From Hemileia vastatrix (Eukaryota > Basidiomycota > Pucciniomycetes > Pucciniales > Zaghouaniaceae): a stretch of 64,000 bases of DNA. This document shows, in pieces, positions 501-58,372 of this stretch. The first letter of the stretch is position 1, and every line of letters starts with the position of its first letter. Location of the stretch: NCBI GenBank assembly GCA_030280995.1, contig JASXTE010000007.1, positions 9,763,001-9,827,000 of the forward strand, written 5' to 3'. A program made the position numbers and the translations under genes. The notes below the pieces were generated by a model, which was not told the DNA's origin, made no database searches, and saw only the letters and a program-made list of their open reading frames with translations.

Positions 501-758
501 AAAACAAGGCAAAATAGACCATTAAAGGGCTCGGCCAATGTTGGAAGACCACACCAAGAATTGAACCACACTCCAAAACTTAGGTTCATATATTGGAAAT
601 ATTAATATATATTTGTGGTAATTATATTAATTACTGTTTGTGGGCCACTTTGCACCTTTCATTGTCTATGTATATTTTTACTCAGCACTCTGAAAGTGGC
701 ATTAACTTGCTCATTTTGCAGGGAGAGGTGCCTGGTGAATAAATAAATAAAAATTTTC

Positions 759-1261
759 CTAGTTGACCAAGATAGAACTGTATTATTCTTAGTCCTTGAA
801 GTAATATAAAAATTAAATTAATTATTTTATATTTTTAATTATTTCAGTTGACCTCTGTCCTGATAATTAAAAAATTATATTATTTCCTTAGTAGACTATT
901 GTTCTAGCTGTGAAATAATTATATTTAAAAAAAAGTAAATTGATTATATTAAAAATATTTCAGTTGACAATAAGTCCTGGTAATTATTTATTTTCAGTTG
1001 ACATTAAGTCCTGGTAATTAAAATTATTTTCAGTTGACATTAAGTCCTGGTAATTAAATTTTTTAGTTGACTTTAGTCCTCATAATTATCAACTTTTACA
1101 TTACTAATTACTAAATTATTTTATTATTTCAGTTGATTTATTTTAATCCTGGTTATTAAATTACTCTAAATTAATTAATAATATTTTGATTATTGTTTCA
1201 GTTGATTCTTTCTCCTGAAAAACATTATATTCTAATTATTCCAGTAGATTAAAAAATCCTG
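759..1261 (+). repeat. Leader array of nine bulged hairpin modules (copy A)
   Basis: Nine short units share the pattern CAG-TT-GAY-loop-RTC-CTG: 759-798 (long loop), 845-862, 961-979, 995-1013, 1031-1049, 1065-1080, 1130-1151, 1199-1217 and 1242-1261. In each, CAG can pair with CTG and GAC with GTC, or GATT with AATC, leaving a two-base TT (once TA) bulge on the 5' side. The inner pair changes on both sides together, which suggests selection for an RNA fold. Spacers are A/T-rich. Units are flanked by TTTCAG before and often GTAATT after, which also look like splice sites. The array lies just upstream of the first ORF of the element and recurs in copies B and C. Confidence 0.75.
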
Positions 1262-4182: not shown

Positions 4183-4674
4183 ATGAGTGCTCCTCAGGAT
4201 AGTGACATCACCATGGAGGGACAACAGTACCCCCAACCAGAAAGCATGAGTATAGAGGAAAAGGACGCCCTCTTAAAAAAGATAACTATCAAAAAGACGT
4301 CTCCTCCTCTTCAGGATCAACTGTCCCATCTGGCCAAACAGGTTCTGAAGCTAGAGGAATCAAAATCTCTCATTTTCAAAGAAGTAGAGCAGTTGCAAAA
4401 CAATTGCAAGGTAGGATTTCAGCAGATGAATCAGGCAATGGCAGAATTAAAGGGAGGCCAGCCCAGTCAATCAAATCAGCAACCCCCTACCCAAGGAGGG
4501 TCCACTCACTCCCAGGAGAAAATCCTGGTAGACAAATGGAAATGGGACTGGTTTCACCAACAGTGGACAAGCCACAGTTGCAACAGGGATCCACCCCCTC
4601 ATCTGACTTCCTCAGCTCACCCTTACAAGGGAAAAAAGCGCCAAAAATCAGGACTGGCAACCATCCCTTGGTAA
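4183..4674 (+). CDS. ORF1 upstream of Gag-Pol, element 1
   Basis: A 163-aa ORF with an ATG start. It has an acidic N-terminus, a predicted coiled coil (about residues 40-85, DQLSHLAKQVLKLEES and following), a Gln/Pro-rich linker, a KWKWDWFHQQW motif near residue 117, and a basic tail HPYKGKKRQK ending in Pro-Trp-stop. The KWxWDW, HPYxGK and final PW-stop are shared with ORF1 of element 2 although the rest differs, which indicates a real protein. Compared with element 3, a 53-nt deletion near the start fuses the uORF start codon region to ORF1. It overlaps Gag-Pol, which lies in the -1 frame. I know no named family; a nucleic-acid-binding or capsid-accessory role is a guess. Confidence 0.75.
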   Translation: MSAPQDSDITMEGQQYPQPESMSIEEKDALLKKITIKKTSPPLQDQLSHLAKQVLKLEESKSLIFKEVEQLQNNCKVGFQQMNQAMAELKGGQPSQSNQQPPTQGGSTHSQEKILVDKWKWDWFHQQWTSHSCNRDPPPHLTSSAHPYKGKKRQKSGLATIPW

Positions 4675-7622
4675 GTAACTTACCCTCTCAGATTAGACAT
4701 AATACTGATAATTACAATATAGGTAATTCTATTGATGTTAAATCTGTACAAAAAATAGAGGAGGATTTAAGAAATTTAGGTTTTAGAGTAGATACACCTG
4801 ACTTGTCTTTTATCCATAATAACAGTACTATATACAATGATAATACAGTTAATCCTCAGTTGCAACCACCTACTAGTGAGATGAGAAGTTCACAGGAGAG
4901 TGAGAGAATTGAAAAGGAGGACATGGAATATTTTAACAATAATCCAACTGTCCATAGAATTGTTTCAGCATTGTGGAATAGAATGACTGATTGTGAGGAA
5001 CAGACAGTTAAGCTCACTAGTGATACAATTTCATCCTTAACATTGAACATTTCTCAATTAGCAACACGTAATAAAGAATTAGAGAAAGAACATTTGTCTC
5101 TAACTCTTAAATATGATTCATTGAGTAATAAATATAATGACCTTTCAAACAAATTTTGTGAGTTAGAAAAATTATATGAAACACACTTATTAAAAACTGA
5201 ATCAAGAACAAAGTTATCTTTTGCCCAGACAAATCAAAGTGTCTCTGAGTTGCTACAAAGATTAACTAAAGTTGAGATTGAAACTGCCAATCTACTAATG
5301 AACCAGGATAATCATAAGTATAATCAATATAATAATAATCCTTTCATTGGCAAAAGTGAATCTCATTCCTTCCCTGTACCACCACAATTAAAACCATCTG
5401 GTGGTAGTGTCAAATCTGAAAATGTAAGTCACAAATCCGTGCAGGAAGAAATACAAGACCATTTATCAAAAGTAAATGAGTTGTTGAATTTACCTAAGAT
5501 TAGTGAGATAAAATCCAATCAGAAGAACTGGCCTAAGATAGATCAGTACCCAACTTATGATGGGGAAGCCAGCTCTGATTGGCAACATTTTATTCAAAGA
5601 ATTGACAACTTGAAATTCTCATATAAGTTACCAGATGAAGAGATAACATCAAAATTAATTTCTTTATTTAAGGATGTTGCTTTATTATGGTTTGAAGCTG
5701 TCTTAAGTGAGGGTAGAGACTACTCTTGGGCTGAATGGAAACAACTTATTGAAAAACAATTTGGAGGTTCTAAATTCAGGCTTACTCAGCAGAGACTGTA
5801 TGAGAAGACTAGGTATAATCCGTTGAATGGTGACAAACCTATGGTATTTTTAATGAATTTAAACAAAATATTAAAAGCCATTGAGCCTCATATGGATTTT
5901 AACTTATGGAAAGATAAGATAATATACAAATTACCTATATCTGTCAGAGACATTGTTGTAGCTAGAACATTAAATGTTACTGAATATTCTGACTTTATTA
6001 ATATTTGCAATGAAATATTATTAAACCATAAGTATGAATCAAGGTATTCCACTTATAAGCAAAATGTTGAACCTGTAAAAACTCAGAATTCAAAAACACT
6101 TCAGGAGAAGCAGAAAAAACCTACTGCACCTGTAGTACCTAAAAAGTATGAAACAAATACTTGTTATAAGTGTAACAAACCTTGGGTAAAAGGTCACAAA
6201 TGTGAGAAAAACATAAATATTGTTGAAAATCAACGTGAATCTGAAACTGAAACTGAAAAAAGTAAAGAATCAAGTGATTATGACAGCAATATCTCATATA
6301 GTGATGAAAATGAAGTCTGTATGTTGGAAGATGATTTGTCCATCTTTGAAAATCCAATATTAAATATGGACTCAAATGAATCTTTAATGAATTTTGAGGA
6401 TGCTGAAATCATTAAGGATATACAAGCTGATAACTTTAGAATGACACCTATCACGGTTCCAGCTATCATTTCTGGTGAAAATGTTAATATAGTATTAGAC
6501 ACAGGAGCTGCTGGTTCAGTTGTTTCCACTAATACATTACAGAAAATTGATAGTGAATATAAGTTTAAGCTTGAACCACTTCAGAATAAAAATTGGAGAG
6601 GTTTTGGATCAGTACTACACCCCATTGGTAAATACAAAGCTGCTGTTTTCTTTAAACACCAACATGGTTATGTAAGGGTAACTTGTGACTTTGTAGTAAT
6701 GGATAATACAAATTGTAGTAACTGTTTTATCATTGGAAATGATATTCTGACTAAATTTGGTGTAAAATTAGACCCTGCTAATAACAATTTTACAATTGGC
6801 ATGAATGGTAAAAGGAAATTTAAAATAAATTCTTTTAACACAGTCTTACACATTGAGTCAGTAACAAATTCCCCGTCTAAAGGAAGAGAATCCAATGAGT
6901 TGGAACTTCTGGAAACAGAAATTTCAAAAGCATCATTTGGCACTCAGATAAGTGAAACTGAGAAAGATAATATTTTGGAATTAATTAAAGCTTTTCCAAT
7001 GGCTTTTGCACATGGTACAAATGAACTTGGCCTTGTAAAAGATCATGAAATGAAAATTAGTTTAACCTGTGATATGGATAATATTCCTGCTAGTCTTAAA
7101 AAGAAACCATACCCTGCTTCACCCATTTATGGCATTTATATTGTAGATCTTGAGGATGAATTTATGCAATCAATTCTTGATAATTATAATTCAGATCCTG
7201 ATTTAAGTAAATTAACTACAATATTAAATGATCCATCTAATGCTTCAATGAATGTTTTAATAAAAACATTACCAGATAAGTATAAAGAGGCATTAGAGAA
7301 AGGAAAATTTTCCATTGAGGATGGTTTTATATATTACAGGAAAAAATTAAGTAATGTAATTGTAATTCCCCCTTCAATGAAGGAGTTAATGTTAAGTATA
7401 TGTCATGATGATATATTAGCAGGTCATTTTGACTACCATAAAACATTAACCAGAGTAAAAAACAGAGCTTGGTGGATTAACATGTCTGAGGATGTTCAGA
7501 AATATGTTGAAACATGTGATTCTTGTCAAAAATCTAAAAGATTAACAGGAAAAAGAGCTGGTTTATTACAACAAATTGAGCAACCAAAAGCTCCATGGGA
7601 AATCATTAACATGGACTTGTAA
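4404..7622 (+). CDS. gag-pol: Gag-protease-(RT/RH deleted)-integrase N-terminal polyprotein, element 1
   Basis: This is a long ORF in the -1 frame relative to ORF1. The first ATG is within ORF1, and entry by frameshift near 4630 is more likely. It has a predicted coiled coil (about residues 200-290), a capsid-type Gag domain (about 375-545, NWPKIDQYPTYDGE onward), a zinc knuckle CYKCNKPWVKGHKC (587-600) and an aspartic protease with VLDTGAAGS (Asp at 699). At residues 907/908 the sequence jumps from KKPYPASP to IYGIYIVD, skipping about 434 codons present in element 2, so RT and RNase H are gone while the frame is kept. The integrase HHCC zinc domain follows (His 1001, CDSC 1038). A 1-nt deletion near 7615 ends the frame. 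Confidence 0.88.
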   Translation: MQGRISADESGNGRIKGRPAQSIKSATPYPRRVHSLPGENPGRQMEMGLVSPTVDKPQLQQGSTPSSDFLSSPLQGKKAPKIRTGNHPLVSNLPSQIRHNTDNYNIGNSIDVKSVQKIEEDLRNLGFRVDTPDLSFIHNNSTIYNDNTVNPQLQPPTSEMRSSQESERIEKEDMEYFNNNPTVHRIVSALWNRMTDCEEQTVKLTSDTISSLTLNISQLATRNKELEKEHLSLTLKYDSLSNKYNDLSNKFCELEKLYETHLLKTESRTKLSFAQTNQSVSELLQRLTKVEIETANLLMNQDNHKYNQYNNNPFIGKSESHSFPVPPQLKPSGGSVKSENVSHKSVQEEIQDHLSKVNELLNLPKISEIKSNQKNWPKIDQYPTYDGEASSDWQHFIQRIDNLKFSYKLPDEEITSKLISLFKDVALLWFEAVLSEGRDYSWAEWKQLIEKQFGGSKFRLTQQRLYEKTRYNPLNGDKPMVFLMNLNKILKAIEPHMDFNLWKDKIIYKLPISVRDIVVARTLNVTEYSDFINICNEILLNHKYESRYSTYKQNVEPVKTQNSKTLQEKQKKPTAPVVPKKYETNTCYKCNKPWVKGHKCEKNINIVENQRESETETEKSKESSDYDSNISYSDENEVCMLEDDLSIFENPILNMDSNESLMNFEDAEIIKDIQADNFRMTPITVPAIISGENVNIVLDTGAAGSVVSTNTLQKIDSEYKFKLEPLQNKNWRGFGSVLHPIGKYKAAVFFKHQHGYVRVTCDFVVMDNTNCSNCFIIGNDILTKFGVKLDPANNNFTIGMNGKRKFKINSFNTVLHIESVTNSPSKGRESNELELLETEISKASFGTQISETEKDNILELIKAFPMAFAHGTNELGLVKDHEMKISLTCDMDNIPASLKKKPYPASPIYGIYIVDLEDEFMQSILDNYNSDPDLSKLTTILNDPSNASMNVLIKTLPDKYKEALEKGKFSIEDGFIYYRKKLSNVIVIPPSMKELMLSICHDDILAGHFDYHKTLTRVKNRAWWINMSEDVQKYVETCDSCQKSKRLTGKRAGLLQQIEQPKAPWEIINMDL
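4629..4638 (+). promoter_or_regulatory. Candidate -1 ribosomal frameshift site, element 1
   Basis: In the ORF1 frame the codons AAG GGA AAA AAG present two overlapping slippery heptamers, G GGA AAA (4629-4635) and A AAA AAG (4632-4638). A -1 slip enters the Gag-Pol frame, which is open here. The homologous place in element 2 reads G GGA AAG in the same phase, and element 3 is identical to element 1. The ORF1 stop is 34-36 nt downstream. Confidence 0.55.
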
Positions 7623-8804: not shown

Positions 8805-9981
8805 TGTCAGCCTAAATATCCTTAGGACTGAGTATTTCTTATGCTTAAAATAAGATAACCTTAACTAGATTAAGCTTATATCTTAAAAATAAGGTTAAAA
8901 TAATAATATATATTATTTTATGATATATATATATAATTATTATTCTATTATATAATTTATAATAGTTTAAATAGCTTATCCATGGCTTAATAATATTTAT
9001 TAAGGTGTTAATGGAGTCATAATATACTTATCTTAAGTGATATGAAGTAATTATTGACATACATAAGCTTATATGTATACATAAATCTCATATTCAGTGA
9101 AATATGCAGTATATTATGTATATTTAGGTATATAAGTGGGTTTTAGCCCCTTAATAGCCTATAACCTTTGTTTTTCTGCTTATTTTAGGTCATATGGACG
9201 AAATCAGTGGACTCACAACGCCTACAGAAGCATAGACACCTATATCAGGCGCATACACCCAGTTTGGACAACTAAAATTACTTCCTTGGATGGTTATTCA
9301 CGGATTTATGGGTTGGAAAGATGTTTTTGGGTTAATGTGGATGCTTGGGGATGTTATTGGGGGCTTGGACATTTTATTTGTTTCCTTTATATGCTTTTAG
9401 TTTCATTAAATCTCTTTTTGATCATTTATTTTACCTGTTTCTTTATGGTATCCGCTTTTATCTGGGATTTCTATTTATGGTATGACTCTGTGTTATTATT
9501 AATAGTGATGGAGGGTCCTTACTGGAGGTCTGGGTGTTGAAACTGCTTGAAGTGGACGCCATGGGGAGGTGATGGGCCCTCACAGTGCTGTAATTGCCGG
9601 GGATAGCAGTGACATCATCTGGATTGAAGGTCTGTGCACTCCAGTGGATTTGGGTATAAGTAAGGAGGGATTTTGACGGTTTATTATAATCATTCAATTA
9701 CTACACTTCAAATAAACACTACACTACAATTATTAACATTCAGAAATATATTATAAAGCCCTTATAAATTGATATTATCTTTATAAAAGCTATAACTATA
9801 TTTTATTCTTCTATTTTCCACCACTAGCACGCATTTAAATCCAAGTATTGTGAGTTTAATTTGAGTATAACTATTCTATTAGTCTTCCCCTGAGGTTTAA
9901 TCACTAAATCATTTATTAATAAGTAGTAGGACCATAAAATAACACTATTATATCATACTTATATACTAGACTGTACTGACA
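8805..9981 (+). repeat. 3' LTR of element 1
   Basis: Same 1177-bp sequence as 2496-3672. I noticed differences at only a few positions (for example ccttaGg versus ccttaGt near the start, and Gaaagatg versus Gaaatatg). Candidate TATAAG at 9655-9660. It is followed by the CTGTT duplication at 9982. Confidence 0.95.
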
Positions 9982-16624: not shown

Positions 16625-17841
16625 TTGATTAATTGGTATTTGAACTTTGTGCCTCACTCATATTTATCATTTGATTGATTTTTTGTCACCATTATGTTAT
16701 TAATATTATAAGTATAGCAAAAACTCGTGTGCCCAACGCATACCGGGTGATGTTACACCTTTTATAATATTATTAAATAAAGGTAAAAAAATATGAAAAT
16801 GATTTGTTTTACAAAAAATAAATTGATATCCAAAAGCAATATGAGGGATAAAAAGGTAAAATTAAAGAGATCAAATATGAAATAAGAAATTAAAGTAAAA
16901 TTCCTGTCATCAAGAGTAAGTAGACATGATGGGGTGAATGCCCACCAGTGGCACTAAACTTGGGCTATAATTTCTTTTTTGTAAAAATAAAAAAAAAATA
17001 CACTTGAGCTTCACCAAAACTTCAGGATGACAATTTCGCCATATCAAACAACTTCTAGTGCAATTATTTAAGAAAAATTCATTTTCATTGCAATAGAGAG
17101 AATTGATCACATCAGACTGCATGTGACCAAAAGTGTCCAGCAAAAGTTCGGCCAAACTTGTGCTGGACACTTTTATGATGGAAAGTAGCTAGGGTAGAAT
17201 TTTTCTTCAGTTCATCTGGTATTTCTTATAAACATGTCCACTGGTATTTGATCTTTGTGCCTCACTCATATTTATCATTTGATTGATTTTTTGTCACCAT
17301 TATGTTATTAATATTATAAGTATTGCAAAAACTTGTGTTCCCAATGCATACCGGGTGATGTTACATCTTTTATAATATTATTAAATAAAGGTAAAAAATT
17401 ATGAAAATGATTTGTTTTACAAAAAATAAATTGATATAAAAAAGCAATATGAGGGATAAAAAGGTAAAATTAAAGGAAGCAAATATAAAATAAAAAATTA
17501 AAATAAAATTACTGCCATCAAGAGCAAGTATACATGTTGGGGTGAATGCTCACCAGTGGCACTAAACTTGGACTATAATTGATTTTTTGAAAAACAAAAA
17601 AGTGCCAATCTGAGGTTTAATAAAATTCAGCAGAACCATTTAGCCATATCAAACAACTTCTAGTGCAATGATTGAGAGAGAATCAATCACACCAGACTGC
17701 ATGTGACCAAAAGTGTCCAGCACAAGTTCGGCCAAACTTGTGCTGTACACATTTATGACAGAGAGTAGCTAGGGTAGAATTTTTCTTCAGTTAATCTGGT
17801 ATTTCTTATAAACATGTCCATTGGTACTTGATCTTTGTGCC
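16625..17841 (+). repeat. Palindrome satellite, left part (two units of about 595 bp)
   Basis: Two tandem units share CTTTGTGCCTCACTCATATTT (16640 and 17238; a third start at 17831 is cut by copy B). Each unit has a hairpin-forming core near 17145-17175 and 17714-17755: AGTGTCCAGCAC..AGTTCGG then CCAAACTTGTGCTG.ACAC. The same satellite forms the array at 43430-47850. Copy B inserted here. Confidence 0.85.
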
Positions 17842-18623
17842 TGTCAGCCAGGATACTAAACTTAACCGGTAAAATAATTAATTATTTTACTGAGTTGAAG
17901 CCATGCCCCTTCTTCTTACTAATAGTTTATTATCTACTTAAGTATTATTTAAAATTAACTAGTTAAGTACAATAAGTAATATAATTAATTAGTTTAAATA
18001 AAATCTCCCTTACAATTTTACTCCCTAACACCGTGCTCAATGGTATAAGTCAATGGGAATAGAATTTAATAATATAATTATAATAAAAAAACTTTAAAGC
18101 AATTATATTACCTCAGTGAGAGATCTGGAATCCCGTGAAAGTAATATAATTAATTAACTATTGCGTAATTAATTGTGACAGTCTAAGAAACTCAAAGTTT
18201 ATTGTTAATAAATTTGATTCCCTTGTTGATTTACCAGTTTTTTTATTTCTTATGTCATATATGTACTCCTTTTAGTCATCCTTTTCCTCAGTATATGGTG
18301 TAAATTACATATATTTTATTCCCTCATGTTTTGCCTATAAAAGGCCTCTTACTTTGTGATTTTAAAAACATTCCTTCATTACTTTACTTTATTATTTACA
18401 CTTACAATACAACACTTATTTCTATATTTTATAACATTAGTATTTACAATATCGTAATTTTAGATTATAATCTATATTAATATTTAGGATCTACCTCTTA
18501 TATTTGAGTAAAACAATCATATTGAATTAGAAATACGTACTTTTTGTTGAGAGACCATTAAAACCCATAAAACCCTTGTAAAAACCTCGAACCAATCTTC
18601 TAGACCAAAAGAACCCCTTAACA
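17842..18623 (+). repeat. 5' LTR of copy B (family 0)
   Basis: Runs from TGTCAGCCAGG to CCCCTTAACA, immediately followed by the primer-site-like ATTGGGTGCC. About 782 bp. The reverse complement of much of it recurs at 51293-51877 and 50582-51292. TATAAAAG at 18336-18343 is a good TATA candidate. Confidence 0.8.
18336..18343 (+). promoter_or_regulatory. TATA box in family-0 LTR
   Basis: TATAAAAG in TTGCCTATAAAAGGCC. The same context is kept in the two family-0 LTRs near 50.8 and 51.35 kb on the minus strand (TGCCTATAAA). Confidence 0.6.
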
Positions 18624-18978
18624 ATTGGGTGCCTTTCCAAAGTATTGATGGCACAAAATTGTTTGAGGTGTATATTAAAGGGACCATCGGTGTTCAAGTA
18701 CCTTTAAGGATGAGAGAGCGACAGAAACAACAAATGTCATACGTCACGTGACAAAACTTTTTTCTTAAAACGGGAATCAAACTGCACTCAAAAATTAGGT
18801 TCATATACTGACTAAACATCATATATATTGTGGTAATTATTGATATTACTATTTGCGGGTTACTTTGCACTCTTCATTTGCTACGTTTTTCCTTTTACTC
18901 AGCACTCTGTAAGTGGCATTAATTTGCTCATTTTACAGGGGAAGTTGTCTGGTAATTTGGATTTAATTTTATTATTAT
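18624..18978 (+). other. Copy B leader, first part, with primer-site candidate
   Basis: ATTGGGTGCCTTTCC at 18624-18638 sits right after the LTR like the primer sites of the other families. The rest is AT-rich leader shared with copies A (from about 500) and C (58400-58633), including the conserved stretch CTTTTACTCAGCACTCT near 18891-18908. Confidence 0.55.
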
Positions 18979-19238
18979 CACTACGCAATATAGGGGGTGG
19001 ACTTGCTAGCAAGTCCCCAACCTGAACTCAGACTGAACTCAGATGGAACTCAGACTGAACTCAGACTGAACTCATACTGAACTCTACTTGAAGACCCACA
19101 AAAACTGTTATGCTGAGTGGTGTTCATCCCTGATTGTATGGTTCCTTTGTCAATAGCTCAATGTGTGTTCAATCTGTGGTGAATTTGAGTCCAAGGTTGC
19201 GGACTTGCTAACAAGTCCGCCCCCCGTATTGCGCGGTG
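18979..19238. mobile_element. 260-bp CACTA-like MITE
   Basis: It begins CACTACGCAATATAGGGGG followed by TGGACTTGCTAGCAAGTCC and ends with the inverted counterpart (GGACTTGCTAACAAGTCC, then GCCCCCCGTATTGCGCGGTG). The inner half of the left TIR, GGACTTGCTAGCAAGTCC, is itself a perfect palindrome. TAT flanks both sides (18976-18978, 19239-19241). The corresponding place in copies A and C lacks it, confirming insertion. The interior has about six units of ACTGAACTCAG. No coding capacity. Its termini resemble those at 15331 and 49165. Confidence 0.85.
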
Positions 19239-19257
19239 TATATTTTTTTTATTTTTC

Positions 19258-19777
19258 CTGGTTGAAAATAATAGAGCAATAGTGTTCTTAGTCCCAGAAG
19301 TAATAAACAATTATATTTTAATAATAATTATTATAATTTTCAGTTGACATTTTGTCCTGATTAATTTAAATTTTATTTGTTCCAGTTGACAAATTGTCCT
19401 GAAAATAAAAATTTTTTATAATTAATAAAAATTCATATTTAATTACTTCAGTTGACATTAGGTCCTGGTAGTTAAGTGATCAGTTCAATAAAAATTTTTT
19501 AATAAAAATTCATATTTAATTACTTCAGTTGACATTAAGTCCTGGTAGTTAAGTGATCAGTTCAATAATTTTTTTTAATTAATAAAAATTCATATTTAAT
19601 TACTTCAGTTGAAATTAAGTCCTGGTAATAAATTAGTTGATTTAAATCCTGAAAATAATTAATTAAAATTATTAATAAACATTTTTTAATTTATTTCTTC
19701 AGTTGATTATATTATAATCCTGGTTTTAAATTATTTTTGAATTAATAAATTAATTTTATTTAGTTGATTTTTATCCT
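19258..19777 (+). repeat. Leader array of bulged hairpin modules (copy B)
   Basis: Nine units: 19258-19297 (CTGG...CCAG, long loop), 19341-19359, 19383-19401, 19449-19467, 19526-19544, 19606-19624, 19635-19651, 19700-19722 and 19762-19777. Stems pair CAG with CTG and GAC with GTC, or GATTAT with ATAATC (19700 unit), or GATTT with AAATC (19635 unit), always with the TT bulge. The first unit is CTGG/CCAG here but CTAG/CTAG in copy C, a compensatory difference. Three central units sit in tandem repeats of about 80 bp. Confidence 0.8.
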
Positions 19778-19861
19778 AATAAGATTTTTATTTTTATTAT
19801 TTTTTTATTTCTGTTAATTAAAAATTTAAAATAAAGACTAATTCATCTTATTGTCTCTTTT

Positions 19862-21360
19862 TGTCATTCTGTATATCTCCAGGACTGAGTAAAAAGTGAT
19901 TATAAATTATGTTAAACACATGAACTATACATGGGAACAATAAATAAGAGTACACAAATAGTATACATAAGTAAAAATATGATAATACACAAAAAATGCC
20001 ATTATAACACCTTATATACACGCATATATCCACCTTTTATAGGTCTTATGTACTTAATATTAAGTTGGAATATTTTAGGATAATCTTAAGAGCCTTAAGT
20101 ATAAGGCTACATAATTTTTAAGTACACTTAAAGCTGTTATATTCATTGTTTTATGCAAAAAACAAGAAATGCGCTTTATTTCACTTAAAAGTTGACTATA
20201 TGCGCTATAAAATTGAGAATATCAAAATTGCGCTTTGACAGATCAATTGGGCTCAATTAGAGCTATTGATTTGGCTATTTAAATGCATAAAAATAACACT
20301 TTTCAAATTTGGTGTTTTTTATGCCAGAAATGGCTTCTGTGTACTGGCCACATACTGCCTGCTTTTTTCCCATGTGAATAGCTTCATTTTTAGCAAAGTT
20401 AGATTTTTCACACTATAATTACCCCACATTCTACGCCCACTGTGGGGAAACACACTAAAAAAGGCGACAGGCGCTTATTTAGTGTCCTAGCTTAATTAAT
20501 AATGCATTGACCTTGTTTATATGCACTAATTTCATTAATAACATCACTATGGCACTTTATTTCATCACCACGCTTAAATTCGCCTAATTTTAGTCAAGGA
20601 TTTACCTGTGAAAGTGCCTGCCAAGAACTGAATGTAGTTACCCCACATCTCACGCTCTTTTTTAAGTTTTTGGGTGGTTTCTCAGTCAATTTTGGTTATT
20701 TTTGAATGGGAATTTCACGTAGTATAATGTCAGGATAAGCCCCATTATTTCTACAGTAAATCCTCCTTATTATTAAGCTATTATTAACCTTAAAAAGTCC
20801 CCTTTAGTCTTTTATATCATTGTTTTATACGCATATACTCTCTTTTTGTCTTTTTCTTTAATTTTGATGGATCTCCCTTATTATTACAGTATTTTGGCGG
20901 TTGTTACTTGTCTAATTATGTCATGGGTCACTAGGGATGTTGATGGGAAGGTCTATTAGTTGTTTTGAGGCGTCATTAACTGTGTATTGGATGGTATATC
21001 AAGGGATTTATTGGGGAACTCAGTGTGTATAAAAGGAGGAGGTTTTTGGGTCTTGTTTCTACATTCTTTATCATTACAATTTAACCAATATAACCAAATC
21101 AATTACAATACATATCAATTAGTACTTCTATAAGACTTTTGAATAGTATCTGAATTATATAATCTATTTTTCTACCAACTACTAAGATTGTAAGCCATAT
21201 ATAATAATAGTGAGAATTATAGTACTGAGACCTTTATATTTGATTATATTTTATAACTTAGTGGATTAAAACTACAGTATTCATATAGGACCATTAAAAT
21301 CTTCTAGACAACTGACTATTCAAGCTAGTTCACGTCCTTTTACTTGAACTTAGCCTGACA
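19862..21360 (+). repeat. 5' LTR of element 2
   Basis: Runs from TGTCATTCTG to TTAGCCTGACA. The 3' LTR has TGTCAGCCTG at the start, so the AGCC of the terminus is mutated here. TATAAAAG at 21028-21035 is the likely promoter element. A recurring GCGCT motif appears several times around 20170-20235. Confidence 0.93.
21028..21035 (+). promoter_or_regulatory. TATA box, family-2 LTR
   Basis: TATAAAAGGAGGAGG, conserved in the 3' LTR at 29168-29175. Confidence 0.6.
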
Positions 21361-21945
21361 ATTGGGGACCTTTCCTCAATAATTCTGTTATAATCCAGTA
21401 AGTGAAATTTTCAAAGAAGGTACACGTAAATAATATCCCTATAGAAATATTTGGATAATTACAACAGGTTGGGGTCACTTATATAGTGATTTCAGAAAAA
21501 GAAGCCCTGTTATATAATAAAATTGTGATATTGAATCATCAATTTTACCACTAATTTAACACATAATTTTTCTTAGTTGGAATCTGTCAATAGACCAATT
21601 AAATTTGTGATCTTTGCAGATGATAACCAATTAAACTGATTAATTGTTTTCTTTTTACAGGACTCTTAATCCCTTTTTTATTGGTTTGTAAAATTCATTT
21701 ATTATTTGGAAAGAATCTTACTAACAAATTTTCTTTTTAAATATAAAAACACGGCTACATATTGTAGACCAGTTAAATCAAGTGGCCACATAAAAGCATA
21801 TTTGAATTTTGGCACTTAAAGATTCACTTAAATATCAATAAGTAAGCAATAAAATTGTCTTCAGTGGTATTAATAAATAATGATTAAACTCCTTTTTGAA
21901 GTTTTTCATATCTAAACTTTCAATTCTCTAAAATTCCACGTAAAA
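21361..21945 (+). other. Element 2 leader with primer-site candidate
   Basis: ATTGGGGACCTTTCC (21361-21375) follows the LTR directly. The remaining leader of about 570 nt is AT-rich and non-coding. The family-0 hairpin array is not present. Confidence 0.55.
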
Positions 21946-22065
21946 ATGTGTGACAACAATGACATTGTAAGTAATAAGGCAAAACCTTATAACTTAAGAA
22001 CTAGAGCTGAAAGACCTGTTACAGGACATCCAAATGGAGGGTCAAGAATCACCAGTAACAATTAA
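21946..22065 (+). CDS. 39-aa uORF, element 2
   Basis: ATG to TAA, 39 codons, including the motif PYNLRTRAERP. It overlaps the start of ORF1 (22034) by 32 nt in another frame. The element 3 uORF (60321-60440) is also exactly 39 codons, carries AYNTRSKANKL at the matching place and also overlaps ORF1. The shared length, motif and overlap suggest a real uORF or a short regulatory peptide, although frame relations to ORF1 differ between the families. Confidence 0.5.
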   Translation: MCDNNDIVSNKAKPYNLRTRAERPVTGHPNGGSRITSNN

Positions 22066-22483
22066 AAACACTCCACCAATGTCCATGGAGGAAAAGGAAA
22101 AGCTCTTAAAACAAATGTCAATAAAGAAGTCCAAAAACACCTTACAAGAGCAAATTCACTCCCTCTCAACCCTACTGAATACACTAACAATAAGAGTAAA
22201 CAATATGTTAGACCAGATCAACAATCTGGAGAAAAGGGCGGCACAGGGCTTTATAGAAGTCAACCAGGCTCTAGTGGATATAAGGTCTCATCAACAACCA
22301 GTGGCACCAAATACCACAGCAACACCTCCAGTACCAGAAGAGGACCAAAAGATAACTGTAAGCAAATGGAAGTGGGATTGGTATTCCCAAAACTACAACA
22401 GTCCTCCTCAACAGGGATCCAGCACTCACCCTTACAGGGGAAAGCCAAGGAGAGGCAGGGGAAATGGAATAAGACCGTGGTAA
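22034..22483 (+). CDS. ORF1 upstream of Gag-Pol, element 2
   Basis: 149 aa, intact. Acidic start, IEKK-type N-terminal helix region shared with element 1 (MSMEEKEKLLKQMSIKKS), a predicted coiled coil (about residues 40-85), KWKWDWYSQNY at about 113, then HPYRGKPRRGRG and a terminal Pro-Trp-stop. It is homologous to 4183-4674. Gag-Pol overlaps in the -1 frame, with a slippery heptamer at 22438. The intact state in an otherwise damaged element hints at a shorter target or at constraint. No known family is recognised. Confidence 0.75.
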   Translation: MEGQESPVTIKNTPPMSMEEKEKLLKQMSIKKSKNTLQEQIHSLSTLLNTLTIRVNNMLDQINNLEKRAAQGFIEVNQALVDIRSHQQPVAPNTTATPPVPEEDQKITVSKWKWDWYSQNYNSPPQQGSSTHPYRGKPRRGRGNGIRPW

Positions 22484-23340
22484 GTCATCCATCTTCTCAG
22501 GATCAATTATATAATCCTAACAATGAATTACTTATAGGTAATGAAATTGATAGAGAGTTATTGGATATAATTGATAAGGATTTAAAAAATTATTCATTTG
22601 AAAATAACATGTTAGACTTGTCTTTAAATGAGGACAATGTACATAGTTTTATTGATCACCAGGAAAATACTATTAATATAAAAATGGAATCAAATGAATT
22701 AAAACTTGACCCTGATGATGAATCTTCTGAATTGGAAACAGAAAAAATTGAATATTTTCTAAAAGAAAATCCAATGGAATCAAAAATAATTAGTAAATTA
22801 TTATTAAGAATTGAACAATTGGAAGAATTCTCTAGAGAGTCCAACAATAATACAGAAAGTGTATTATTAAACATCACACAATCATTGAGTACAACAGCCA
22901 ATAAGTTAAAAGTTATTGAGAATTCAAATAATGAATTGATCAATGAAAATAAAAGATTAAATTCTGAGATTAAAAATTTAGAAATTAAATTAGAACATTC
23001 TCAGAATATTATGGCCACCATAGAGGGACGTGTAAAATTGTCTTTTTCAAATGTAAATGATACCTCAACTCATGTACCTGTGATAAAAGATAGGTTACAA
23101 AGAGTAGAAATTGAAGTAGCTAACATTTTGAAAAATACTGAAACAATAAAAGATAATACCTCTTATGTAGAAAGAGTACCAGTTTTTATAAAACACTCTG
23201 ATGATAAACCAATGATGGAACATGAACATAGTGTCATGGGCTCTGAGAATATAAAATCAGTAAAAGATGAAATAAATGATCATCTTTCTAAAGTAAGTGA
23301 ATTAGTCAATATTCCTCAGGTTAGGGAAGCAAAAAACTAG
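22366..23340 (+). CDS. gag-pol: Gag-Pol N-terminal region, element 2
   Basis: Open in the -1 frame of ORF1 for 324 codons. It holds an Asn/Glu-rich region and a long predicted coiled coil (about residues 140-220, KVIENSNNELINENKRLNSE), as in element 1 residues 200-290. It ends at a TAG just before the capsid domain because of a frameshift; a second frameshift lies near 23432. The true start is probably the frameshift at 22438 rather than the first ATG. Confidence 0.75.
   Translation: MEVGLVFPKLQQSSSTGIQHSPLQGKAKERQGKWNKTVVSHPSSQDQLYNPNNELLIGNEIDRELLDIIDKDLKNYSFENNMLDLSLNEDNVHSFIDHQENTINIKMESNELKLDPDDESSELETEKIEYFLKENPMESKIISKLLLRIEQLEEFSRESNNNTESVLLNITQSLSTTANKLKVIENSNNELINENKRLNSEIKNLEIKLEHSQNIMATIEGRVKLSFSNVNDTSTHVPVIKDRLQRVEIEVANILKNTETIKDNTSYVERVPVFIKHSDDKPMMEHEHSVMGSENIKSVKDEINDHLSKVSELVNIPQVREAKN
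22438..22444 (+). promoter_or_regulatory. Candidate -1 frameshift site, element 2
   Basis: Codons AGG GGA AAG in the ORF1 frame give the heptamer G GGA AAG, aligned with G GGA AAA of elements 1 and 3 (after TAC A.G). A -1 slip enters the Gag-Pol frame. Confidence 0.55.
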
Positions 23341-28000: not shown

Positions 28001-29500
28001 TGTCAGCCTGTATATCTCCAGGACTGAGTAAAAAGTGATTATAAATTATGTTAAACACATGAACTATACATGGGAACAATAAATAAGAGTACACAAATAG
28101 TATACATAAGTAAAATTATGATAATACACAAAAAAATGCCATTATAACACCTTATATACACGCATATATCCATCTTTTATAGGTCTTATGTACTTAATAT
28201 TAAGTTGGAATATTTTAGGATAATCTTAAGAACCTTAAGTATAAGGCTACATAACTTTTAAGTACACTTAAAGCTGTTATATTCATTGTTTTATGCAAAA
28301 AACAAGAAATGCGCTTTATTTCACTTAAAAGTTGACTATATGCGCTATAAAATTGAGAATATCAAAATTGTGCTTTGACAGATCAATTGGGCTCAATTAG
28401 AACTATTGATTTGGCTATTTAAATGCATAAAAATAGCACTTTTCAAATTTGGTGTTTTTTATGCCAGAAATGGCTTCTGTGTACTGGCCACATACTGCCT
28501 GCTTTTTTCCCATGTGAATAGCTTCATTTTAAGCAAAGTTAGATTTTTCACACTATAATTACCCCACATTCTACGCCCACTGTGGGGAAACACACTAAAA
28601 AAGGCAACAGGCGCTTATTTAGTGTCCTAGCTTAATTAATAATGCATTGACCTTGTTTATATGCACTAATTTCATTAATAACCTCACTCTTGGCACTTTA
28701 TTTCATCACCACGCTTAAATTCGCCTAATTTTAGTCAAGGATTTACCTGTTCAAGCGCCTGCCAAGAACTGCATGTAGTTACCCCACATCTCACGCTCTT
28801 TTTTAAGTTTTTGGGTGGTTTCTCAGTCAATTTTGGTTATTTTTGAATGGGAATTTCACGTAGTATAATGTCAGGATTATCCCCATTACTTCTACAGTAA
28901 ATCCTCCTTATTATTAAGCTATTATTAACCTTAAAAAGTCCCCTTTAGTCTTTTATATCATTGTTTTATACGCATATACTCTCTTTTTGTCTTTTTCTTT
29001 AATTTTGATGGATCTCCCTTATTATTACAGTATTTTGGCGGTTGTTACTTGTCTAATTATGTCATGGGTCACTAGGGATGTTGATGGGAAGGTCTATTAG
29101 TTGTTTTAGGCGTCATTAACTGTGTATTGGATGGTATATCAAGGGATTTATTGGGGAACTCAGTGTGTATAAAAGGAGGAGGTTTTTGGGTCTTGTTTCT
29201 ACATTCTTTATCATTACAATTTAACCAATATAACCAAATCAATTACAATACATATCAATTAGTACTTATATAAGACTTTTGAATAGTATCTGAACTATAT
29301 AATCTATTTTTCTACCAACTACTAAGATTGTAAGCCATATATAATAATAGTGAGAATTATAGTACTGAGACCTTTATATTTGATTATATTTTATAACTTA
29401 GTGGACTAAAACTACAGTATTCATATAGGACCATTAAAATCTTCTAGACAACTGACTATTCAAGCTAGTTCACGTCCTTGTACTTGACCTTAGCCTGACA
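28001..29500 (+). repeat. 3' LTR of element 2
   Basis: 1500 bp, TGTCAGCCTG to CCTGACA, homologous to 19862-21360, with TATAAAAG at 29168-29175. Followed by the CTTTT duplication. Confidence 0.93.
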
Positions 29501-29528
29501 CTTTTCTTCATTTCAGTTAAATCTTAAA

Positions 29529-30035
29529 ATGACTGACCAAAGTGGTTCTGCTGCACATGAAGAGGAACTAGACTTGATTAATTATGATGAGCCTACTTCT
29601 GTAAGTTCTCCTTTAACAAGAAGAATTTCTCAGATTAATAAATCCTTGCCCCAAACAGGATGCAGAGATGGAAGAAGTGGAAATCCTAGTAGACACAACT
29701 CAGGATCAGAAGCCTGTGATAAACCCACCAGAAGAGCTTCTAAAAGGCTTCAGGATAAAAAAGACTCCATTGCCTCAACAGATAAAGAATCTGTCAGCTC
29801 ACATAAAGTAGCTAAGGACAGAAAACTTGAGACTAAAGGCAAGGAGAGATGCTCTGGAAGAAAAGATGAGAAGTATAGATATCTTTCTTCAAGAGAAGAA
29901 GAAACCTCTTCCCCCCAGGGGTCAACAACAATTGGCTCCCGAGTCCAAAGAGAAGGTGGAAGTGTCCAAGTGGCAGTAGGACTGGTTAAACACTCAGTGG
30001 GACAACCTGTCTCAAAACCAGCATCAGTTACCTAA
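29529..30035 (+). CDS. Family-0 uORF, copy B
   Basis: 168 codons from ATG. The first 45 residues (acidic, EEELDLINYDEPTSVSSPLT) match copies A and C. Beyond about residue 46 it overlaps ORF1 in another frame. Copy C keeps the same frame open for 199 codons with moderate similarity, so a dual-coding overlap is possible, but the conserved coiled coil and Trp motif lie in the ORF1 frame. No domain recognised. Confidence 0.5.
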   Translation: MTDQSGSAAHEEELDLINYDEPTSVSSPLTRRISQINKSLPQTGCRDGRSGNPSRHNSGSEACDKPTRRASKRLQDKKDSIASTDKESVSSHKVAKDRKLETKGKERCSGRKDEKYRYLSSREEETSSPQGSTTIGSRVQREGGSVQVAVGLVKHSVGQPVSKPASVT

Positions 30036-34000: not shown

Positions 34001-35170
34001 GAGGAAGAGCTATTACAGCTTATTTGTATTCATATGAGAAGGACACTGACTTGAAAATTTATGCACCATATTAAATGATCCAAAGAATGCTTCAATACAG
34101 GCATTAATTAAAACCCTTCCACCAAAGTACTAGAAGGCTTTGGAAAAAGGTAAATTTTCAATTGATGAAGGTTATCTATATTATAGGAGAAAGTTGAGTA
34201 ATGTTATTGTTATTCCTCCTTCTATGAGAGAAATCATCTTAAAATTTTGTCATGATGACATACTAGCTGGACATTTTGAACTTGAAAAAACAATGATTAG
34301 AATTAAGAACACTGCTTGGTGGGTTTATATGTCTGAAGACACAAAATTATATTTTGAGTCTTGTGATTCTTGCCAAAAATCAAAAAGATTAACTGGTAAA
34401 AGAGCAGGATTAATGCAACATATTGAACCTCCTGATGCACCATGGCAGATAATAAACATGTATTTTGTAACAGGATTACCAATTGCTGCTAAAGACAGTT
34501 ATAACTCTTGTTGGTTTATTGTGGACACATTCACAAAAATGTGTAAATTTATCCCTACTCACGAGGATGTTTACACTAAAGAATTAGCTTTCTTATGGTG
34601 GTCTCATATGTTTAATACTTCTGGTTTTCTTAAAGCCATACTCTCTGACAGAGACCCTAAATTTACTTCTGAATTTTGGATGTCTCTGATGGATGTTTAT
34701 GGTTGTGATCTGAAACTTTCTACTGCCCACCATCCACAGACTGATGGTTTAGCTGAAAGAATGATTCAGACTTTAGAGGAAATGATTAGAAGGTATTGTG
34801 CCTTTGGCCTTGATTATAAAGATAATGACAGATTCACTCATGATTGGGTTACCTTACTTCCTGGGTTGGAATTTGCTTATAATAACACTGTTCCTTCTGT
34901 TACTCAAAGAAAGCCTTTTGGGCTCTGGCTTGGATATGTTCCAAATGCTCCTGCCCGAATTCTCAATAACAAAATACCTAAATTGGATATACACCCTGGT
35001 GTAAAGTCTTTTCTTCAAATGCAACAACTATTCAGAAGTCATGCTCAACAATGTATTGAAAAATCATTTGAATATGAGAAGAAGAGATGGGACAAATCCC
35101 ATAAAGAATACACTTTTAAAAAGGTGATGAATTGTTGATTTCTACAGTCCACTTCAACTTAAAAAGTAAT
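31079..35170 (+). pseudogene. gag-pol: Gag capsid to integrase remnants, copy B
   Basis: Stops near 31245 and 31303, then open 31337-32230 (capsid end, zinc knuckle with a Cys lost, protease VLDSGAGRS near 32039). A frameshift near 32155-32220 precedes 32240-32935 (protease end, RT fingers). Stops at 32935, 33223 and 33718 separate RT with YIDD (about 33110) and RNase H. After a frameshift near 34020, integrase 34140-35138 contains HHCC and the DDE core. The sequence ends at 35170 where element 4 begins, so chromodomain and 3' LTR are missing. Confidence 0.85.
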
Positions 35171-35944
35171 TGTCACCGGACGACCTACGCACAAGGTCGA
35201 GGATGTTCCTGAAAGTGAGATGAGGGATTTAGAAACCTCTTCGAAGCACAGAGGAATGATTCAAGGAAGTGGTTTGAAGGTTACTCGAAGTAAGAGCTAC
35301 AGGTTCGAGGTTCGTTTGAGAAGAATTATAAAATAGTTTCAAAGGTAATAAGAATTCTCAAGATCTCACGAAGGGTTGGAAAATCAATAATCAAAGATTT
35401 AGGATTTAGAAATGAATATTGAGAAAATAAAAGAAAGATACAATAACAATGATTTAACCCTAAATATTTTACCACTATTAATGTAAATACGATTTATAAT
35501 TTAATTCTAAGGAATATCAAACCAAATACCCAACCCCTTTTATATCCTTTGTTCCTCCTCGCATTGACCTCCCTTCCATTGCACCATTCCCATTCCATTG
35601 ACCATTACTAACATACACTTAGACCCTCTTCGCTAAATATTTGTCTATGCTCAATTTACCCCTTTTTAATTAATTAACAAAACTTTAATGAAAAACTACT
35701 ACTGTACTATTTTGTTGAACCTAGCGCTGTGCGTCGCTTATTGAAAAGGAGACTAAGGCAACCTATTGGGAGATTGACTAATTTAGATTTAGAGTTTAGG
35801 CTAGCGCAGTTAAATAGTAAGTACACAAAGGAAAATCACAGTTGCTATGGAGAATTGCTTTCTGCGCTTCGAGTATAGATTTAGGACTCGATATTATTGA
35901 TTTAATGAGCTGTTTTCGCCTCGAGTGTCACGTGGCGCGTGACA
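35171..35944 (-). repeat. 3' LTR of element 4
   Basis: Certain from 35171 to 35721 by match to 42821-43371. Extension to 35944 is inferred from the inverted ends TGTCACC / GCGTGACA. The terminal part contains GTCACGTGGCGCGTGAC (35927-35943), which has a CACGTG E-box core. Confidence 0.7.
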
Positions 35945-50550: not shown

Positions 50551-50581
50551 TATTTTATTATTTTATTATTATTTTTTTATA

Positions 50582-54900: not shown

Positions 54901-57327
54901 AGGCCATAGGAAAAGATTTAATCAATTCAATGATTGAATCTTTTTCCTCACCAGAAAGATGTTCTCCAAAAGAAGCATTGTCAATTTCAGACATAAGAGC
55001 ATGTGTTTCCTTTGTACACCTTCCTTTATATTGAATCACAGAATTACATGTGTTCAATTCTGGTTTTTACAATTTTTTGGGGGAGGAAATCTTAAATTTT
55101 CTCTTCCCATTTATCCCCATTGTGAAGCATTGATTTGAAGGATTTAATTTTATGCCATATTTGATTAAAATTACATTTCCTATGATAAAACAACCTCTTA
55201 AATTATTATTTTTCATGACAACAAAATCAAAAATAGATCTTACAAAACCATGGTTATATTTAAAATACACTGTGGCTTTGTATTTACCAATGGGGGACAA
55301 AACAGAGCCATAACCTCTCCAATTTTCAGAAATGATAGGCATCAGTTTAGATTTATAGTCTTGATCCACTGAAGCAAGTGCTTTTTCAGATACTACACTT
55401 CCTTAAGCTCCAGAATGCAGAACAACTTCCATGTTGGTTCCATTGATCAAGACTGGTGCTATGATTCGGGCAATTACAATTGAGATATCCTCAATGTTTC
55501 TTATGATCTCAGAAACCTCAACTGTAGATAAATTATTATTATCAATATCAATAGTTCTTAAATAAGGAATATCTTATTCCAGCACAAGATTTCTTGTTGA
55601 GGTTCATATGAAATATTTCTGGCACAATCACTTGAAGTATCATCCAGTTCTATTGTGTTATCAGCCTGATCCTCAGTTTGTTCAACAAGATTTATCTTCT
55701 TGTCACAAACATGGCCATTCTGCCAAGGCTTGTTGCACTTGAAGCAAGTAGTTGTTGCAAACATTTTTGGTGCAACAGGGGCAGAAGGTTTACCAATCTT
55801 TTCCAGAGGTTTCTGTTGGTAAGTGGGGATTTCTCCAAAGGGGTCCTAGGAATGAATCTTCTGGCATCATACTTGTTGTTCAGAAGGATCTCATTGTAAG
55901 TATTAATGAAAGAAGAAGGTTTTCTTGAGAAATCAGTCCTAGCCACTATCAAGTCTCTCAAAGACATTGGCAATTTATAAAGGATCCTGTTGTTTCTTAA
56001 CTCAAACTCCATATTTATGTCCATTTGCCTCAAGATTTTTACAAGTTTTGTTAAGAACTCAATAGGTTTATCAGTAGAAGAGCTATATCTAGTTTCCTCA
56101 TACCTCCTTTGTTGAGCTATCCTGAACTTGGAGCCACCAAATTGTGCTTTAATCAATTTTTTCCAATCTTCCCATGAGTAGTCATTCCCATCCAGGAGAA
56201 CAGATTCATACCACATTAGGGAAACATTGGTAAACCAAGAAATTAACTTTGACACAATTTCCTCAGCTGGGAGTTTGTAAGAATTTTTAAGTAATCAATT
56301 CTGCAAATGAATTTCTGCCAATCAGAAGAAGAATCACCATCAAATGTTGGGTAGTGGTCAAGTTTTGGCCAATTCTTTTGATTTGAAGGAGTTTCCTTAG
56401 TAACAGCTTGTTTCTGAGTAAGGAGCATCTGTAACTTCTCTAGTTGTGCAGTAATCTCATAGTTTGATCTTTCTGTTGAAGGTCCTGGTGCATCATCAAT
56501 TTTTGATGGAAACTCAGTGGTATCAACAGACATTTCTCAATCTAATTTTACTTTAGATGAACTAGAAACAGGTAAACTTGGAGCATCCTGTACCATATGT
56601 TCCTTCAAAGAAGTTTCAGAATATTTTTGATCATTAAAAAATGAATTCAATTTTTCCTCAATGGTTGTTAGTCTGGTTTTCACTTTTGGAAGACTAGATA
56701 AACTCTCATTGACCTTTGCAAAAGATAGCTGGGTTTTTTTTTGAAAAGATAAATAATGATCACTCAATCTTTTCAGGTTCATCTTATCTACCTCTAGCTC
56801 CAGGCAAAAGGTAGATACAGTATCTTTCAGTTTAGACAAATCATTTTAATATTTTTCTATAAAGCAAGTTTCTTTTCATGGGTTGCTGTGTAATGAAACA
56901 AATCATCAAAAACTCTCTGTAACTCACTCCTCAATGCTTGATAACCCTGTTCAGTTGACAAAATATTACATTTCTGAGTTAATTTCATGTTGTTCATGAT
57001 ATGATTTTGTTTAGCAATAATATCCCTCAAATATTCATCATTAATTTTAGCTACATCTGGAGTGTTTCTCAATAAGGAAGCAGAGAAACTTTCCAGATTC
57101 TCATAAAACTCAGGTTCAAGTGTTTCATCAATAATAGCCATATCAGGATTTATCATTGAAGTAGCAATTAGAACTAAAGGATTAGATACATTTGAAATTT
57201 GAGTAATTTGTCTACTGTTCTCAGCCTCTACAGGTTTCACAGTCTCATCTCCTCTTCCACAATTACCTGAAGGAACTGAATCAGTTACAAGAAATGGTAC
57301 TTGAGAATCAATAGAGGGGCTTACCAA
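51932..57327 (-). pseudogene. gag-pol: Gag-Pol of copy C
   Basis: Leftward from 57327: N-terminal region (57327-56857, 56839-56537), capsid (56533-56243 and 56255-55692), zinc knuckle CFKCNKPWQNGHVC (about 55750), protease region (about 55430-55067; the active box is corrupted to LHSGA), RT 55057-54491 and onward with YIDD near 54340, RNase H (54160-53680), connection 53663-53310, integrase HHCC and DDE core 53163-52546, and C-terminal domain plus chromodomain 52321-51932 (EYLLRFKNKS...WIPEKEIS). At least eight stops or frameshifts separate these pieces. Confidence 0.87.
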
Positions 57328-57920
57328 GGTTTTCTGGACATGATCATATTTTTTTTCTTTTTCTTCCTCCTTGATAAGGGTGAGGAGGTGTGGGGTTGAC
57401 TTGGCTGTGTCTTGATGGACCTGCTTGGGGAAATTAAGTCTGTTGATTTTGAGACAGGTAATCCCACTGAGTGTTCAGACAATCCCACTGACACTTGTAT
57501 ACTTCCACTTTCTCTGGCTGCTGGGGAGCCAATTGTTGAAGATCCCTGGAGGGAGGAGGTCTCCTCGCATCTATCTTTCTTACCTTTTCCTCTAGAGAAT
57601 CTACTCTTGACCTCAATCTCAAGTTTTCTGTCCTTAATTCTTTTATGTGTGTTGAAAGGTGCTTTTCTGGTTGAGGTAGTGACATCTTTTTTATTTTGAA
57701 GCCTTTTGGAAGTTCTTCTGGGGGGTTTATTACAGGTTTCTGTTCCTGAGTTGTTTCTACCAGAATTTCCACTTCCTCCATCTCTACATCCTGGTTGGGT
57801 CAATGATTGATTAATTTGAGAAAATTTTCTAGTTAAATGAGAATTCACAGAAGTAGCCTCATCATAATCAATTAAACCCAACTCCTCTTCACGTGCAGCA
57901 GAAACACCTTGATCAGTCAT
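57321..57920 (-). CDS. Family-0 uORF, copy C
   Basis: 199 codons from ATG at 57920, with the conserved acidic start (EEELGLIDYDEATSVNSHLT). It stays open across ORF1 and finally reads the Pro-Trp-stop because of a length change in an A-run near 57350. The first 45 residues are supported by copies A and B. The rest may be an overlap artefact or a true dual-coding stretch. Confidence 0.45.
   Translation of the reverse strand: MTDQGVSAAREEELGLIDYDEATSVNSHLTRKFSQINQSLTQPGCRDGGSGNSGRNNSGTETCNKPPRRTSKRLQNKKDVTTSTRKAPFNTHKRIKDRKLEIEVKSRFSRGKGKKDRCEETSSLQGSSTIGSPAARESGSIQVSVGLSEHSVGLPVSKSTDLISPSRSIKTQPSQPHTSSPLSRRKKKKKNMIMSRKPW
57434..57781 (-). CDS. ORF1, copy C
   Basis: 115 codons, starting MEEVEILVETTQEQKPVINP. 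Leucine-zipper-like coiled coil (TENLRLRSRVDSLEEKVRKI, about residues 50-70) and the Trp motif YKCQWDCLNTQWDYLSQNQ near the end. It stops early compared with copy B and lacks the HPYxGG tail in this frame. It overlaps the uORF in another frame. Confidence 0.6.
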   Translation of the reverse strand: MEEVEILVETTQEQKPVINPPEELPKGFKIKKMSLPQPEKHLSTHIKELRTENLRLRSRVDSLEEKVRKIDARRPPPSRDLQQLAPQQPEKVEVYKCQWDCLNTQWDYLSQNQQT

Positions 57921-58018: not shown

Positions 58019-58372
58019 CAGGATAAAATCAACTAAAATAATAATCAATTTATTAATTCAAAAAAATTTAAAACCAGGATTATAAAATAATCAACTGAAG
58101 AATAAAATTTAAATTTTTATTAACAATTTTATGATAATTATTATCAGGTTGTAGATCAACTGAGAAATAAATCAATACCAGGAATTAATGTCCACTGAAA
58201 TATTAAATATGAATTTAAAAATTTTATTATTATGAAAATTTGTCAACTGGAACAAATAAAATTTTAATTTATCAGGAAAAAAGTCAACTGAAAATTATAA
58301 TGAATAAATTTTTAAAAAATAATTTATTACTTCTAGGACTAAGAACACAATTACTCTATCATTTTCAGCTAG
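58019..58372 (-). repeat. Leader array of bulged hairpin modules (copy C)
   Basis: Minus-strand units of the same type as in A and B, for example 58097-58075 (CAG-TT-GATTAT...ATAATC-CTG), 58035-58019 (GAT...ATC) and 58372-58333 (CTAG...CTAG, long loop). Some middle units are degraded. It lies between uORF and element 3. Confidence 0.7.

Follow-up and report, generated by a model that had tools for sequence, protein, structure and literature searches.

Do the short units repeated between the LTR and the first ORF of a fungal retrotransposon family work as hairpins in the element's RNA, work as protein-binding sites in its DNA, or record tandem duplication alone? We analyzed a 64,000-nucleotide stretch of Hemileia vastatrix (contig JASXTE010000007.1, positions 9,763,001 to 9,827,000; hereafter the window), where a sequence-only reading had described such modules as covarying bulged hairpins.

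The elements and their leader units

The G+C content of the window is 32%, and nested LTR elements make up most of it. Self-comparison identified E1, with LTRs at 2496-3672 and 8805-9981 and a second copy from 58634; E2, with LTRs at 19862-21363 and 28001-29503; and E3 on the minus strand, with LTRs at 35171-35721 and 42821-43371. The same comparison identified copies A, B, and C of family 0, which are old copies of one Ty3/gypsy family: A runs from base 1 and is broken up by E1, B has an inferred 5' LTR at approximately 17843-18624 and is broken up by E2 and E3, and C runs from 58633 downwards on the minus strand. The leader of B (18625..19861, plus strand) extends from the likely LTR end to the E2 insertion, with that end (18624/18625) placed by inference because the ACA-ATTGGG junction is common to B, E1, and E2. 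An ORF of copy B at 34134-35138 matched Integrase_H2C2 (E 4.6e-16), the family 0 pol DNA matches E1 and E2 at approximately 65-78%, and a chromodomain, as carried by chromoviruses, is present in E1. A protein search with the 308-aa ORF of copy B found no relatives. The E3 ORF at 38466-39698 (minus strand), which encodes integrase domains, had 5432 relatives; among the 120 listed, the top match had 62% identity, and the named ones were nearly all from the rust fungus Austropuccinia psidii MF-1 (best 58% identity), a genome with 33.8% G+C and more than 90% transposable elements, mostly Gypsy, according to PMC8063080. Copy B is flanked on both sides by tandem repeats of approximately 608 bases (16632-17842 and 43379-48358), and at 49695-50576 units of 6 and 12 bases form a long T-rich array.

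We identified 26 units in the family 0 leaders, 10 in A, 9 in B, and 7 in C, at the places where the modules had been reported; 23 are short and 3 have a long loop, and all are in element sense. In copy A (plus strand), the long-loop unit 1 (759..798) has a CUAG/CUUG outer stem with one mismatch and is followed by unit 2 (845..862), with all six core pairs; unit 3 (889..906), with a UAG/CUA outer stem and a UA bulge; units 4, 5, and 6 (961..979, 995..1013, and 1031..1049), covered by the pair table and the covariance model described below; unit 7 (1064..1081), with a broken outermost pair; unit 8 (1130..1151), with GAUU/AAUC; unit 9 (1199..1217), with its third inner pair broken (GAU/CUC); and unit 10 (1242..1261), with a UA bulge. 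Copy B (plus strand) begins with the long-loop unit 1 (19258..19297), which has a CUGG/CCAG outer stem and an AGAGCA/UGUUCU inner stem, and continues with units 2 to 5 (19341..19359, 19383..19401, 19449..19467, and 19526..19544), likewise in the pair table and covariance model; unit 6 (19606..19624), with its third inner pair broken (GAA/GUC); unit 7 (19634..19651), with a U-G outermost pair; unit 8 (19700..19722), with GAUUAU/AUAAUC; and unit 9 (19761..19778), with a UAG/CUA outer stem. In copy C (minus strand), the long-loop unit 1 (58333..58372) has a CUAG/CUAG outer stem and a CU bulge, unit 2 (58273..58290) has a broken third inner pair, unit 3 (58232..58249) has 3 of 6 pairs broken, unit 4 (58179..58197) has a broken third inner pair and a UG bulge, unit 5 (58145..58162) has a broken second inner pair, unit 6 (58075..58097) has GAUUAU/AUAAUC, and unit 7 (58019..58035) has a U-G outermost pair. 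The outer stems of the long unit thus differ between B and C as the sequence-only reading had it, and 1 of its 11 predicted pairs is changed on both sides.

The leader array is real and family-specific. A strict motif, AGTTGA-N2..16-TCCTG, matched the window 16 times, always in the leaders of A, B, and C and in element sense, whereas 100 dinucleotide shuffles averaged 0.63 matches, with no more than 3 in any shuffle; modules are therefore not equally common outside these leaders within the window. A looser pattern gave 24 matches, 20 in family 0 leaders and 4 outside, and the leaders of E1, E2, and E3 had no array by eye and no strict-motif match. At the curated threshold, Rfam had no match in the window, and at E up to 5 the B leader had a single sub-threshold mir-11 match, outside the array. 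Among IMG/VR viral contigs, the single-unit pattern was found in at least 120 stretches, with one match each in the 80 listed, and the two-unit pattern in 44; among 163 loci, L158 and L137 had five unit matches each, at 50-51% G+C. A literature search, including PMC12210899, found no such leader hairpin array, a result that leaves absence from print unproven.

The tandem periodicity is 36 bases in A and 77 bases in B, which indicates that the arrays expanded separately. Such periods are expected of an AT-rich leader minisatellite, in which the units would resemble one another by ancestry alone and their pairing would be a functionless by-product of the founding unit, a reading that we consider unlikely. 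The short units of A total 172 bases; those of B are richer in G+C (55/154 bases) than the sequence between the B units (28/301). This property, together with the leader position, also fits the main rival to an RNA reading, a DNA array bound by protein in the manner of the gypsy insulator, which according to PMC2374998 is a cluster of short, near-constant cores with short AT-rich spacers in the leader. The family 0 array shares this design, tandem short cores and AT-rich spacers in a Ty3/gypsy leader, but its motif is unrelated and bipartite, with complementary halves at a variable distance, and host and protein differ. The Su(Hw) core consensus, YRYTGCATAYYY (PMC2374998), was not found in the units, whose consensus CAGTTGAC..GTCCTG lacks TGCATA. 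We rate the DNA array as rather doubtful; if it were true, the gypsy insulator would have a counterpart in a fungus.

Base pairing and change between copies

The proposed fold, CAG, a UU bulge, GAY, a loop, RUC, and CUG, was recovered with all six pairs in 16 of the 23 short units, and standard pairs occupy 129/138 cells, compared with 26-65/138 after a shift of the 3' partner by 1 or 2 bases. At the outermost position, 17 units have C-G, 2 have U-A, 2 have U-G, and 2 have a broken pair; the second pair is A-U in 22 and broken in 1; and the third, just before the bulge, is G-C in all 23. Above the bulge, whose first base is always T (23/23) and whose second base is T in 20/23, the first pair is G-C in 21 units and G-U in 2, the second is A-U in 22 and broken in 1, and the third is C-G in 10, U-A in 8, and broken in 5. 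These last five lie at 1199, 19606, and the C units 58290, 58249, and 58197, which lost the pair by the same uncompensated G to U change. The reported alternation of GAC/GUC with GAU/AUC, and the extended GAUUAU/AUAAUC at 19700 and 58097, are present in the sequence. We rejected the GAUUU/AAAUC stem claimed at 19635, since its ten bases would have no room for a loop; what can form there is GAU/AUC, closing a loop of 4 bases.

Constant letters, AGT.GA and TCCT, would explain these data under a DNA array without any RNA folding. Against such an array, the two halves lie at variable distances, 5 to 11 bases from GA to UC, yet loops stay at 3-6 bases and the intervening letters tend to complementarity: the interior letters gave 28 contiguous inner pairs compared with 11.9 after shuffling, and in A and B only, 22 compared with 9.3 (P 0.00005, for units that are related and not independent). 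The six core pairs also include 4 G-U and 0 A-C cells, as expected of element-sense RNA, but these cells are few.

We then compared the units with each other and between copies, taking orthology from the whole-leader alignment, in which A7 and B7 may be paralogous; when 21 units, unequal in length, were aligned with MAFFT, gaps were misplaced, and this alignment was left out of the counts. When the 3' letters were re-dealt among units, the outermost pair reached its observed pairing with a frequency of 0.039 and the third inner pair with a frequency of 0.0038, figures that are no clean probabilities because the units share ancestry. The remaining core pairs hardly vary, which makes the test uninformative for them, and neither the next pair outward (1.0) nor the fourth inner pair (0.78) gave a covariation signal. 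The third inner pair is U-A in 8 units, all of them in the 3' part of the arrays (units 7 to 10), and these may therefore trace to one inherited change, which is what the minisatellite reading would have for the pair types in general.

Between A and B, 41 of the 48 pairs in 8 orthologous units were unchanged, 1 had a single change and still paired, 3 had a change with a break, and 3 were double changes, all compensated (permutation mean 0.38, P 0.0024). These compensated changes argue against both the minisatellite and the DNA array. Between A and C (6 units), 1 of 3 double changes was compensated and 8 pairs were broken (P 0.17), and between B and C (6 units) there were 0 double changes and 6 breaks. 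Unit 9 has a different outermost pair in each copy: C-G (A), U-A (B), and U-G (C). Deamination of CpG is an unlikely source of the double changes; the arrays hold no CpG today, and earlier CpG is possible.

The arms of A and B are identical at 82/96 (B-defined) or 86/108 (A-defined) positions compared with 166/251 in the spacers, contrary to what a minisatellite would give, and the A-defined arms of A and C at 62/84. The minisatellite reading gains from copy C, where pairs break freely (a broken pair in 4 of 6 short units) and arms decay like spacers, with B-C identity of 61/72 in arms and 181/216 in spacers and thus no excess arm conservation. The claim that compensation points to selection on RNA structure accordingly stands in part: compensation between A and B exceeds permutation and a pair-aware model performs better, but pairing is not kept in C, the inner types may stem from one change, and predicted folding is weak. 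Covariation was assessed on three copies, too few for proof, and the evidence for RNA pairing is limited but real.

Pairing-aware model and predicted folding

We trained a covariance model on 8 units of equal length, for which E-values are rough. In the window, 19 leader units ranked first (E up to 0.033), of which 8 had served for training, 2 duplicated a training sequence, and 9 were new, and the first outside site followed at E 0.045. With pairs, the sites at 1128, 19698, 58073, and 19759 had E-values of 0.00031, 0.0003, 0.00032, and 0.0035, compared with 0.065, 0.096, 0.11, and 5.4 without pairs. The short units missed or ranked low were A3 (absent), B7 (E 1), C5 (1.9), and C3 (3.7).

Best folds of 36-base pieces reached -0.6 to -6.3 kcal/mol, and the hairpin was absent from the best fold in 7 of the 23 short units (A3, A7, B4, B6, B7, C3, and C4); A9 and C5 formed variants of the hairpin, and B9 and C2 formed five of its pairs. 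Fold z-scores of the arrays, from 60 shuffles each, were -0.87, -2.58, and -0.92 in sense and -2.28, -1.81, and -1.41 in antisense (A, B, and C, respectively), and the array-free control leaders E1 and E2 had sense z-scores of -2.83 and -2.66 (60 shuffles each), so the arrays fold no better than these leaders. For the short units of A and B in 60-base flanks, predicted occupancy of the hairpin exceeded 0.3 in 6/17 at 37 C (A4, A6, A10, B4, B5, and B8) and in 5/17 at 20 C, with 0.002 for A unit 3 at 37 C; occupancy in sequence context is thus predicted to be mostly low.

Weak hairpins would suit a translation or splicing element, in which ATG-free pyrimidine-YAG sequence aids ribosome scanning or the units act as splice-site decoys. 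The array regions of A, B, and C hold 1, 0, and 2 ATGs compared with 9.4, 7.9, and 7.4 expected, and CAT is not depleted there. We nevertheless regard this explanation as improbable: the array-free leaders are also ATG-poor (1 compared with 6.5 expected in E1 and 2 compared with 9.1 in E2), so ATG scarcity does not explain the units, and GT follows CTG in just 10 of the 23 short units, a count on which we also set aside each unit as a mini-exon.

A candidate RNA address and its possible partner

The reading we put forward, tentatively and with somewhat less than even confidence, is that the units form a series of RNA hairpins to which a basic protein of the element binds, perhaps to mark its genomic RNA. 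Small hairpins in the leader of the element transcript would have been tandemly multiplied and kept under selection while the A and B lineages were active; this selection is supported in part, because the units pair, changes between A and B are compensated, orientation is single, and A-B arms are more conserved than spacers. In each unit the 2-base bulge has a G-C pair beneath it and G-C and A-U pairs on its upper side, an arrangement that could hold an arginine. A basic protein that binds several hairpins jointly would mark the genomic RNA of its element, with packaging the most likely purpose. To our knowledge, the selection of genomic RNA by fungal Ty3/gypsy elements is poorly understood, and a compact hairpin with a constant bulge core, present as 6 to 9 short units per copy, offers a directly testable RNA address. 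Retroviral packaging signals are leader stem-loops that Gag may read, and the array resembles them in its leader position and stem-loops; it differs in having many near-identical units and no zinc knuckle pattern in family 0, a pattern also not found in E1 or E2.

In the arginine sandwich of HIV TAR and 7SK, as described in PMC6189040 and PMC11885821, a bulge pyrimidine makes a base triple with the A-U pair located two positions up, and the pair preceding the bulge serves as the base. TAR requires its first bulge U and tolerates deletion of the last, and the bulge of HIV-2 TAR is UU. The units show this layout of bulge pyrimidine, G-C, and A-U above, with T as the first bulge base in 23/23 short units, A-U in 22/23, and a Watson-Crick pair, G-C, below the bulge in 23/23. 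The G-C below the bulge resembles that of the fully preformed 7SK mutant, and the UU bulge that of HIV-2 TAR (PMC6189040, PMC11885821); a constant first and a free second bulge base are shared as well. A DNA site would likewise have constant letters. Unlike TAR and 7SK, with one or few such sites in a long stem, the array consists of many short, weak leader units; the resemblance is one of sequence layout, no common ancestry is claimed, and an arginine-bearing partner is here only a candidate. The narrower reading, in which arginine-sandwich hairpins arrayed in the leader form a TAR-like address for a K/R-rich protein from a frame overlapping the coiled-coil frame of the first ORF, seems to us very improbable. 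Under it, the genomic RNA would both encode and bind its marker protein, and a TAR-like element would have evolved independently in a fungal retrotransposon.

The candidate partner is the product of the first ORF after the array, a second, basic frame of 168 aa in B (29529..30032, plus strand) and 199 aa in C (57324..57920, minus strand), with K+R at 30/168 and 39/199 residues; the product of C had no relative in a protein search at E up to 10. Overlapping frames were identified from 1366 on in A and at 4183-4700 in E1 and 22034-22500 in E2 (all plus strand), where the coiled-coil frame encodes 163 aa in E1 and 149 aa in E2. The second frame is offset by +2 and lies open along the coiled-coil frame in all five elements, with longest runs of 110, 123, 139, 139, and 129 of 140 codons in A, B, C, E1, and E2, compared with synonymous-shuffle means of 54.5, 42.9, 47.7, 46.4, and 56.5 (P 0.005, 0.001, <0.001, <0.001, and 0.002, respectively). 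As a control, P was up to 0.02 in 2 of 130 tests on window ORFs, and one of these two was again the E2 overlap, viewed from its other side. Variation in the coiled-coil frame is greatest at its third positions, so the openness of the second frame may reflect tolerance more than selection. Because E1 and E2 carry comparable overlapping frames, also with basic products, and have no array, the frame is a weaker candidate for a partner specific to the array; in E1 the second frame continues into an ORF of 1138 codons.

The first ORF after the array runs for 24 codons and then, in B, meets a 58-base stretch at 29601-29658 with GTAAGT and ACAG ends, removal of which would lead into the coiled-coil frame. 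Its GTAAGT is kept in A and not in C, and E2 has a comparable 58-base stretch at 21967-22024. Judged from their sequence, both stretches, in copy B of family 0 and in E2, are likely introns close to where the coiled-coil ORF begins. The coiled-coil frame of E1 has its own ATG at 4183, with no intron needed or present.

Two further features of the leaders were observed. In B, an insertion of approximately 260 bases with 79-base inverted ends, probably MITE-like, lies at 18979-19240 (plus strand) and is lacking in A and C. Upstream of the array, a block of approximately 48 bases, with no match in IMG/VR, is near-identical in A (675-722, plus strand), B (approximately 18892-18941, plus strand), and C (58473-58425, minus strand); it holds CACU-N5-AGUG and ends in TTTTRCAGG, and could represent either a 3' splice site or another RNA element.
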